Source: Dehalococcoidia bacterium
GTDB lineage: Bacteria; Chloroflexota; Dehalococcoidia; UBA2979
DNA: 35,569 nt
Assembly: GCA_004296805.1 (NCBI GenBank)
Contig: SCVR01000092.1
Coordinates: 1 to 35,569 of the forward strand
Direction: 5' to 3'
The notes under the pieces were generated by a model that was not told where the DNA came from, did not search any database, and saw nothing but the letters and a program-made list of their open reading frames with translations. This document shows, piece after piece, positions 5,558-15,095 of the stretch; within the stretch, counting starts at the first letter, position 1, and every line of letters begins with the position of its first letter. Made by a program: the position numbers and the translations under genes.

Positions 5558-6688
5558 CTATCGAGCCCGCGCCCGCGCGCCTCCGGCGACCGCGGCCGCC
5601 AGCGCCGTCGTTACCGGTACGGCCGCCACGATGCCGATGCTCCCCACGACCGTGCGCACCACCTCGGTCGCCAGCGCGTCGAACGACACGAGGATCCCCG
5701 TTGGCTGCTGCTGCGCCGCCAGGATCAGGATCAGCGGAAGCGCCGTGCCCGCGTAGGCCAGCAGCAACGTGTTCGTCGTGGCGGCGATGTGGTCACGGCC
5801 CACGTTCATCCCCCGCCGAAACAACTCCTGGCGTGACAGGCTCGGGTTGGCCTCGTGTAACTCCGCGATCGCGGACGCCTGCGTCGTCGTCACGTCGTCG
5901 AGGACACCCACGGCGCCCAGGATCATGCTGCCGAGCAGAAGCCCGCGTGCATCGATGATCCCTGGACCGAGCAGGACCTGCAGCGTGCTCGCATCGTCCG
6001 TCGCCATCCCACTCAGGTGCGCAAATCCGACGGCACCCACCGCGAGCAACCCCGTGAGCACGAGGCACCCGAACGTCGCGCCGAGCGCCACCGCAGTCTT
6101 CCGCTCCACCCCGTGCCCCAGCGTGAGCGTTGTCGCCATGATCACGAGCGCGCCGAAGATGCACACCAGCAGTGGATCCCAGCCCGACATGATGGCCGGC
6201 ACGATGAACCGCGCGATCACGATCACGCTCGATGCCAGTCCCACCAGCGACATCGCACCGCGCGTGCCGCCCACGATGACGACCAGCAGCGCGAACGCCA
6301 GCGTCAGCGTCCACACCGGAATCCGCCGTGCCCGATCGCGAAGCTGGTACACCGTGCCCTGTTCGCCCTCGGCAGCGCCGAGCAGGACCGTCTCCCCGAC
6401 CTTCACTTCGAACGCATCCGCCGAGGCCGCCTGGTACGTCCTGTCCACCGCGAATCGCTCACCCTCGACCTCCACGATCACGCGCTGCTGCCGGATCACG
6501 CCCCCCGGTGTCGGGATGTCCTCCCCTGGGGTGACCTCCACCACCCGCGCCTCGCGGATCACCTCGTGCACCACGGGCAAACCTCGGCGCTCCCACACCC
6601 CCGAGGCGGGCAGGATCACCGTCAGCACGAGGAGGAGCGCCGCGATGCCTAGGTAGGCGAGCGTGGTGTTGCGGGCTTGCGGGAGCAT
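5558..6688 (-). CDS. YibE/F-family multi-pass membrane protein
   Basis: 376 residues. One N-terminal membrane segment (about 9-27) is followed by an extracytoplasmic domain rich in Val/Glu (about 35-120), then about seven hydrophobic segments from WTLTLAFALLVVIVGG onward. The diagnostic C-terminal blocks are GAVGVLDDVTTTQASAIAELHEANP-like, RRGMNVGRDHIAATTNTLLLAYAGTALPL and the small-residue tail. These match the YibE/F family (DUF family also found in Firmicutes), proposed to be transporters or export permeases, with no firm substrate. It is divergent from the zinc-type lipoprotein gene, and the nested palindrome between them could affect both. Confidence 0.85.
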   Translation of the reverse strand: MLPQARNTTLAYLGIAALLLVLTVILPASGVWERRGLPVVHEVIREARVVEVTPGEDIPTPGGVIRQQRVIVEVEGERFAVDRTYQAASADAFEVKVGETVLLGAAEGEQGTVYQLRDRARRIPVWTLTLAFALLVVIVGGTRGAMSLVGLASSVIVIARFIVPAIMSGWDPLLVCIFGALVIMATTLTLGHGVERKTAVALGATFGCLVLTGLLAVGAVGFAHLSGMATDDASTLQVLLGPGIIDARGLLLGSMILGAVGVLDDVTTTQASAIAELHEANPSLSRQELFRRGMNVGRDHIAATTNTLLLAYAGTALPLILILAAQQQPTGILVSFDALATEVVRTVVGSIGIVAAVPVTTALAAAVAGGARARAR

Positions 6689-6750: not shown

Positions 6751-6779
6751 TTGCGCGGCAATCTGAGACTTCGTATCAT
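6751..6779 (+). promoter_or_regulatory. Promoter of the zinc-type lipoprotein gene
   Basis: TTGCGC (-35, 6751-6756) and TATCAT (-10, 6774-6779) are separated by exactly 17 nt, a good sigma-70-like promoter. The expected transcription start near 6786 falls inside the nested palindrome, so a bound repressor would block polymerase. The start codon follows at 6810 with GGGAG as ribosome-binding site. Confidence 0.6.
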
Positions 6780-6795
6780 CGATACATCGTCTCAG
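6763..6795. promoter_or_regulatory. Nested 33-bp palindrome, candidate metal-regulator operator
   Basis: The sequence divides as CTGAGAC-TTC-GTATC-ATC-GATAC-ATC-GTCTCAG. The outer 7-bp arms (6763-6769, 6789-6795) and the inner 5-bp arms (6773-6777, 6781-6785) are both perfect and share one centre at 6779, with 3-nt spacers on each side. It covers the -10 box and start region of the downstream zinc-type binding-protein gene. Fur/Zur and DtxR/MntR-type repressors bind palindromes in such positions, but it does not match a specific known box that I can name. It lies between divergent YibE/F and lipoprotein genes. Confidence 0.6.
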
Positions 6796-6809: not shown

Positions 6810-7715
6810 ATGCCGCGCCCCCTCTATCTCGTCATTCTGGCCATGGCCGCCGCAGCGCTTCTCGCCTCCTGCCGCGGCGCCTCCACACCCGAGGACGCCC
6901 GGCTGCGTGTGGTTGCCACCATCGCCCCGGTCGGCGCGCTCGCCCAAGCCGTGGCTGGCGACGCCGTCCGCCTCGACGTGATCGCAAAGGCCGGGGTTGA
7001 CCCCCACGAGTACCAACTCAAGACCGCGGACGCTCGCGCCATCGCGAATGCACAACTCATCCTTCGTAACGGGCTGGGTGCCGACGCCTTCCTCGACAAG
7101 GCGCTCGGCAACAGCAAAGGCACAGTCGTCACCATCACGGACGGCCTCACACTCCGCGACGGCGCGTCGGGGGACGGCGGCTCCGGCCACGACCCCCACG
7201 TCTGGCACGACCCCCACAATGACATCGCAATGGTCGAGGTCATCGTGAAGGCGCTCGCCACCGCCGACCCGGCGCACGCCGCCACCTTCGAGGCCAACGG
7301 CCGCGCCTACCAGGAGCGGCTGCGCCAGACCGACCGCGAGGTCCAGGCCCTCATCGAGGGCATCCCTCCTGCCAACCGCAAGATGGTCACCGACCACGAC
7401 GCCTTCGGATACTTCGCCGCTCGCTACGGCCTGACCGTCGTCGGCACCGTCATCGCCGGCGTCACCACAGGATCCGAGCCGTCCGCAGCCTCCGTCGCCG
7501 CGCTCGTCCAGACCATCCGCCGCGAAGGGGTCCGCGCCGTCTTCGCCGAGAGCTCCGTCGATCCCAAGATCGCCCGCCGCGTCGCGGAGGAGACCAATGT
7601 CCGGATCGTGGACGACCTCTACGGCGACTCCCTCGGCGCACCTGGTTCGGGCGCGGACACCATCGAGGGCATGTTGCTCTCGAACGCGCGAAAGATCGCC
7701 GACGCACTGAAGTAG
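6810..7715 (+). CDS. Zinc/manganese ABC transporter substrate-binding lipoprotein (ZnuA/TroA-like, cluster A-I)
   Basis: 301 residues from ATG 6810, chosen for the lipoprotein signal and GGGAG site; the track's upstream extension runs through the promoter. The signal peptide is YLVILAMAAAALLASC with lipid Cys21. Metal ligands can be placed: His66 in GVDPHEYQ, His130 in HDPHVWHDPHN, His196 in VTDHDAFGYFAARYGL and Asp273 in DLYGDSL. His rather than Glu at the third position favours zinc over manganese, as in ZnuA and TroA. The His-rich loop is short. FAESSVDPK near 245-253 is also conserved in the family. It delivers metal to a membrane permease, but no permease or ATPase gene is in this window. 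A nested palindrome covers its promoter. Confidence 0.88.
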   Translation: MPRPLYLVILAMAAAALLASCRGASTPEDARLRVVATIAPVGALAQAVAGDAVRLDVIAKAGVDPHEYQLKTADARAIANAQLILRNGLGADAFLDKALGNSKGTVVTITDGLTLRDGASGDGGSGHDPHVWHDPHNDIAMVEVIVKALATADPAHAATFEANGRAYQERLRQTDREVQALIEGIPPANRKMVTDHDAFGYFAARYGLTVVGTVIAGVTTGSEPSAASVAALVQTIRREGVRAVFAESSVDPKIARRVAEETNVRIVDDLYGDSLGAPGSGADTIEGMLLSNARKIADALK

Positions 7716-15032: not shown

Positions 15033-15051
15033 CCACCCGCAACACCAGCAT

Positions 15052-15076
15052 GAGGGCCCCGCGTCGCGGGGCCCTC
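15052..15076 (+). terminator. Perfect 11-bp stem hairpin after the small secreted protein gene
   Basis: GAGGGCCCCGC - GTC - GCGGGGCCCTC, a perfect 11-bp stem with a 3-nt loop, lies 20 nt after the stop at 15032 and just ahead of the AAGGA site of the hydrolase gene. There is no T-run, so it may be a U-tract-less terminator common in GC-rich bacteria, an attenuator, or an mRNA-stabilising 3' end. Confidence 0.6.
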
Positions 15077-15095
15077 CGTCGTAAAGGACACGACG

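Follow-up and report, generated by a model that had tools for sequence, protein, structure and literature searches.

The short intergenic region between a YibE/F gene and a divergently transcribed gene for a ZnuA/AztC-type lipoprotein in a Dehalococcoidia bacterium carries what looks like two perfect palindromes nested on a single centre, which raises the question of what such an element is and which of the two genes it serves. The window analysed is the whole 35,569-nucleotide stretch of contig SCVR01000092.1. We interpret the element, with a probability of roughly 0.8, as a double Zur operator, the target of a Fur-family zinc regulator encoded on contig C57 of the same draft genome. The features needed for the argument are listed here by position in the window.

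5558 to 6688, minus strand: YibE/F gene (PF07907), divergent
6751 to 6756, plus strand: -35 hexamer TTGCGC of the znuA promoter; GTTGC is invariant in four genus members
6764 to 6778, no strand: Zur-type box 1, TGAGACTTCGTATCA; 10/10 positions of TGANACNNNGTNTCA, intact in four aligned genus members
6774 to 6779, plus strand: -10 hexamer TATCAT of the znuA promoter; falls within box 1, in its right half, and is unchanged across four genus members
6780 to 6794, no strand: Zur-type box 2, CGATACATCGTCTCA; 9/10 positions of TGANACNNNGTNTCA, an inverted copy of box 1
6810 to 7715, plus strand: gene for a ZnuA/AztC-type zinc-binding lipoprotein of ~301 amino acids (PF01297)

The window reads exactly CTGAGAC TTC GTATC ATC GATAC ATC GTCTCAG at 6763-6795, so that the outer arms (CTGAGAC/GTCTCAG), inner arms (GTATC/GATAC) and 3-nt spacers described in an earlier note on this DNA are all present as stated. 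That note also placed the element over the -10 box of a promoter with a 17-nt spacer, and TTGCGC, 17 nt and TATCAT are indeed found in that order, as a sigma-70-like promoter. The spacing is 17 nt in four of the four genus members, and the -35 hexamer is TTGCCA in two relatives in the genus alignment. A generic promoter scan gave no score to TTGCGC-17-TATCAT at the site. The possibility that the element is a terminator was rejected because it is not followed by a T-run on its 3′ side; a generic terminator scan of 6763-6795 likewise returned no match.

The 33-bp pattern occurs once in the window, with 0 copies expected in shuffles, and a second copy is absent from the 2.6-Mb draft genome at up to three mismatches. 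The earlier judgement that two concentric palindromes are unlikely to arise by chance stands for the exact 3/3 geometry, of which 15 Markov-1 simulated windows gave 0 cases, and is weaker for concentric geometry in general, with seven cases of concentric 7+5-bp palindromes (loop 0-6, spacer 0-5) in the same 15 simulations, or ~0.5 per window. A second concentric 7+5-bp case in the window itself, at 15052, is a plain hairpin with 12-bp arms, the strong GC-rich one at 15047-15079 (GAGGGCCCCGCG-T-CGCGGGGCCCTC) that may be a terminator or a boundary element. The geometry of the element by itself is only mildly surprising and makes a weak argument. The element exceeds chance because it is conserved at orthologous promoters and, with the box enriched across the genome and the family as well, a chance palindrome has a negligible probability despite the simulated rate for palindromes of any concentric geometry.

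This conservation was followed through genus orthologues at 72-74% identity (G001, G003 and G004; L002, L003 and L089), in which the element occupies the corresponding position, ahead of znuA with yibE/F running the other way. The four genus members referred to at znuA are those whose locus was readable. The earlier note had staked its proposal on the palindrome recurring upstream of orthologues, and the check in relatives left that proposal standing. In the genus alignment, TTGC-n-TATCAT shows no change and TGAGACTnnGTATCATCGA little or none. Box 2 is kept in G003, altered in G001 (CGAGACGCCGTCTCA) and decayed in G004 (CGATACACCATAGCA). The inner arms are broken in G001 (GTATC/GAGAC) and the outer right arm is lost in G004, with box 1 intact in both; box 2 or the concentric symmetry has thus decayed in two of the four genus members, and in one of them box 2 itself is not conserved. 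Relatives further out retain the 15-mer TGAKACnnnGTMTCA and differ in where its partner lies, the spacing of the pair ranging from 16 to 59 bp; in L006, for example, TGAGACAATGTATCA and TGATACTTAGTCTCA lie 26 bp apart. The boxes are conserved while their partner moves, and therefore the unit is the 15-bp pseudo-palindrome, in the 7-1-7 form of the Fur family. These are 15-bp palindromes ending in TGA...TCA, and among 29 distinct boxes position 2 is G in 29/29 and position 3 is A with few exceptions.

The earlier description of two concentric palindromes consequently gives way to one of a 15-bp box present twice, for which mirroring is not required in relatives. Box 1 and box 2 are adjacent, with centres 16 bp apart, and on this comparison the nested look is a side effect of their mirrored arrangement. 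A single large operator of truly concentric palindromes, bound by one big dimer or by two nested dimers, would be in keeping with the perfectly symmetric arms in this genome and with the recurrence of the 16-bp spacing in G003, G001 and some other promoters. We regard such an operator as very unlikely, given that the symmetry is broken in G001 and lost in G004 around an intact box 1, that intact 15-mers elsewhere are 21-59 bp apart, that the 16-bp pairs in L164 and L177 are unmirrored, and that znuC carries one box only. Elsewhere, too, a nested palindrome may come from a mirrored pair of pseudo-palindromic boxes, a point to bear in mind when such elements are interpreted.

The distribution of the box was assessed by pattern searches of the 2.6-Mb draft genome; absences are provisional because the draft is 88.6% complete, and further regulators may be absent from it. 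The exact TGANACNNNGTNTCA pattern has one copy, at box 1. Allowing up to one mismatch, TGAKACNNNGTMTCA is found in five places: box 1, box 2, a site upstream of znuC (G000:C57:1995-2009), C311:6559 and C400:14894, of which the last two lie at gene ends and are probable chance sites. The znuC site emerged only after the 33-bp pattern was split into 15-mers. A search of 44 family genomes gave 36 exact sites, and the reversed pattern gave 2. Of 27 ZnuA-type loci drawn from this genome and its relatives, 15 carry a box, scored as a match in 9 or more of its 10 positions, in the 700 bp upstream of the aligned region. The counts were 0/27 for each of two control patterns upstream and 0/27 for the box pattern inside the SBP genes. 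Matches in L165 (katG-like) and L178 (truB-like) are possible chance occurrences and were left out of the evidence; the match at L165:3068-3082 is a perfect TGAGACCGGGTCTCA before a catalase-peroxidase-like gene (identified by eye), either chance or another Fur-family target. A zinc-independent ribosomal paralogue or a COG0523 gene, hallmarks of Zur regulons, was not seen behind a box in this genome.

The znuC site links the window to a candidate regulator. Contig C57 has the gene order zur-znuC-znuB, and its box, TGAGACTTCGACTCA, lies between zur and znuC, directly after a TACGCT hexamer. It is kept as TTGAKACnnnGRCTCAA just 3′ of TACGCT in 5/5 genus members. The box is thereby found at the core promoters of zinc-uptake genes on both contigs, overlapping the znuA -10 in four genus members and following the znuC -10 in five, and it joins znuA to a znuCB partner on another contig. 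The linkage extends beyond the genus, with zur immediately before a boxed znuA in G014, G016, G021 and G007 and also in a Bacillota (L014) and a Bipolaricaulota (L025) genome, and with a box just upstream of zur itself in L202, L204, L205 and L208. The proposal of the earlier note that a Zur-like metalloregulator acts here gains from the finding that a Fur-family, Zur-like gene adjoins znuCB in the same genome and that this operon bears the same box.

The C57 protein has a Fur-family domain (PF01475, 93 bits) and a Cys4 structural site (CSEC...CPEC) that aligns with that of FurB and is conserved in relatives. Its nearest solved structures by sequence are M. tuberculosis FurB/Zur and then S. 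coelicolor Zur; none of the NCBIfam Zur models reaches its cut-off for this protein. The column of the FurB and S. coelicolor Zur sensory cysteine (C79 in S. coelicolor) is occupied by glycine, and the FurB aspartate column has a cysteine that nearly every relative in the class retains, which suggests a rearranged sensory site in these Zur-like proteins. The Zur-like proteins at L083:1465-1887 (minus strand) and L181-L207 have a cysteine at the FurB aspartate column (GLVC/GLVD) and glycine, alanine or threonine at the sensory cysteine column. C79 is essential in Streptomyces coelicolor Zur (PMC6103462). The positions of the sensory residues vary among Zur proteins with the N2OS set kept (PMC6103462), and so the moved cysteine is compatible with zinc sensing.

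A second Fur-family fragment, at the end of the short contig C386 and with no linkage there to znu genes, may be an alternative binder of the boxes. Regulators of the DtxR/MntR family often control TroA-type importers, and a site for such a protein would suit the lipoprotein downstream. DtxR-family regulation is disfavoured because a PF02742 gene was not found in the draft genome by a search that gave matches in control genomes; the 15-bp TGA...TCA form is moreover that of the Fur family, the site co-occurs with a Fur-family gene, and we consider a DtxR/MntR site highly improbable.

The nature of the metal is approached through the importer. The His-His-His-Asp pattern of ZnuA-type ligands reported in the earlier note is present in the PF01297 lipoprotein, which has a histidine (TDHDAF) where the manganese binder 5hx7 has a glutamate (TSEGAF). 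In NCBIfam the SBP fits best to AztC and the permease to AztB, both of them zinc components and both below the model cut-offs. The Fur-family regulator might instead use the same boxes to sense manganese or iron in the manner of Mur or Fur, znuA being really part of a manganese importer: Deinococcus MntC is close behind AztC for the SBP, Deinococcus MntA gives the ATPase its highest score, manganese binders are numerous among the PDB relatives of the SBP, and the canonical sensory cysteine position of Zur is lost from the regulator. We judge manganese or iron sensing unlikely in view of the ligand histidine and the AztC and AztB matches, together with a regulator whose nearest PDB entries are Zur proteins and which keeps a conserved cysteine near the sensory site. 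Zinc is most likely the metal signal.

Whether the divergent gene belongs to the same response is a separate matter. Each of the four genus members has its YibE/F gene divergent from znuA. TACGCT, the apparent znuC -10 in five genus members, recurs on the minus strand at 6719-6714 (AGCGTA), in a block upstream of yibE that is invariant in the genus alignment. If this hexamer is the yibE -10, as it could be, the boxes would lie ~57-87 bp upstream of the start. In Streptomyces, the box through which Zur activates zitB lies 5′ to the -35 (PMC5472717), and the boxes here could by this geometry also control yibE/F, possibly by activation at high zinc. The leftward promoter has no recognisable -35, and in the wider relatives a methyltransferase-like, an MFS-like or another gene (identities by eye) takes the place of yibE/F with the boxes kept. 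The boxes are well upstream of any likely yibE promoter, the wrong position for repression. Control of yibE/F from these boxes is accordingly improbable, and a search of the literature for links between YibE/F and zinc or other metals yielded nothing usable. The inclusion of YibE/F in the same metal response, as the earlier note had it, is not borne out by a neighbour order that is lost outside the genus and boxes so far from the likely yibE promoter, and the gene is probably a neighbour outside the output of the operator.

We propose the following mechanism for the double Zur operator, in which binding, repression, the zinc signal and the number of dimers are inferred from the arrangement of the sequence. 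Each 15-bp TGAKACnnnGTMTCA box would be the footprint of one dimer of the C57 regulator. When zinc is sufficient, zinc-loaded Zur dimers would occupy both boxes. Box 1 extends over the -10 hexamer and the 3′ part of the -35/-10 spacer, and box 2 would lie over the likely start site, as judged from the position of the -10. The bound protein would block RNA polymerase at znuA, and the single box just downstream of the znuC -10 would do likewise there. When zinc is scarce, Zur would release both promoters, and znuA and znuCB would be made together, so that one ABC importer would be rebuilt from two loci.

Boxes in relatives are also found at genes other than znuABC. At L154:1-5872, L167:3038-3715 and L175:3019-5904 they precede genes for differing combinations of a FeoB-like GTPase/Gate protein, a YpdA/ArsO-like flavoprotein and an orphan DQCWCWGxDV protein that has no Pfam or NCBIfam match; the L154 set also includes a methyltransferase and a glutaredoxin-like protein. 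A zinc-starvation uptake set is a possible reading of these genes. At L160:1890-4909, L164:6175-9179, L174 and L177 the boxes accompany genes for a PF01497 binding lipoprotein and for CydDC-like ABC exporters, lying next to or between them, and these genes could constitute a metallophore-type system. At L169:643-4085 a box separates the gene of a putative membrane protein rich in histidine (CDF-like by eye) from that of a His/Asp-rich lipoprotein with no Pfam match. It is conceivable, if doubtful, that Dehalococcoidia-type Chloroflexota share a lineage-wide zinc regulon with a code of its own, namely a Zur with a relocated cysteine and a modular TGAKACnnnGTMTCA box at variable spacing, reaching in relatives beyond znuABC to the FeoB-like GTPase/Gate protein, the flavoprotein, the DQCWCWGxD protein and the PF01497 and CydDC-like set. 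If true, this extended set could represent a new zinc-scavenging pathway. For a branch of the Chloroflexota known mainly from metagenomes, the element provides a zinc-repressor site and a regulator that can be put to the test, and the specific 15-bp pattern is an aid for finding zinc-starvation genes in relatives.

The anatomy and logic of the element are those of known Zur operators, and it would be a zinc-uptake switch-off of an already known kind. The RegPrecise collection for Chloroflexi comprises 30 transcription factor regulogs in 5 genomes, and Zur is represented in more than 25 taxonomic groups (PMC3840689). A literature search for a Chloroflexi Zur motif or the TGATAC/GTATCA spelling found nothing usable. 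The Streptomyces Zur box is a 15-bp 7-1-7 element (PMC5472717), and Streptomyces znuA has two such boxes, the second of which has been suggested to tighten repression (PMC6103462, PMC5472717). The S. coelicolor and actinobacterial box (tGaNNatSatNNtCa; taaTGaNAANNNTTNtCANta by comparative analysis) and the boxes described here share the 15-bp length, the TGA...TCA ends, the 1-bp centre, the overlap with the znuA promoter, the presence of two copies at znuA and a regulator from the same Fur-family branch. They differ at symmetric positions 6 and 10, where TGANACnnnGTNTCA has C and G and the actinobacterial TGANAAnnnTTNTCA has A and T; the A at 6 and T at 10 of TGaNAANNNTTNtCA are not found here, C at 6 and G at 10 being present in 53/58 box strands. 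The flanking taa/ta of the actinobacterial motif are also absent from this window. Comparison with the actinobacterial motif thus makes a modest case for a lineage-specific spelling variant. The C57 protein shows partial similarity to M. tuberculosis FurB and S. coelicolor Zur, sharing with them its assignment to the Fur family by sequence, its Cys4 site (CxxC...CxxC) and an HHHH stretch, and differs from them in having glycine for the sensory cysteine and a conserved cysteine for the aspartate. As in the AztABC and ZnuABC zinc importers, the SBP best matches AztC, the permease best matches AztB and the ATPase belongs to the metal-importer group, whereas the matches fall short of every curated cut-off and the genes here occupy two loci, a solitary znuA next to yibE/F and, on another contig, znuCB together with zur.
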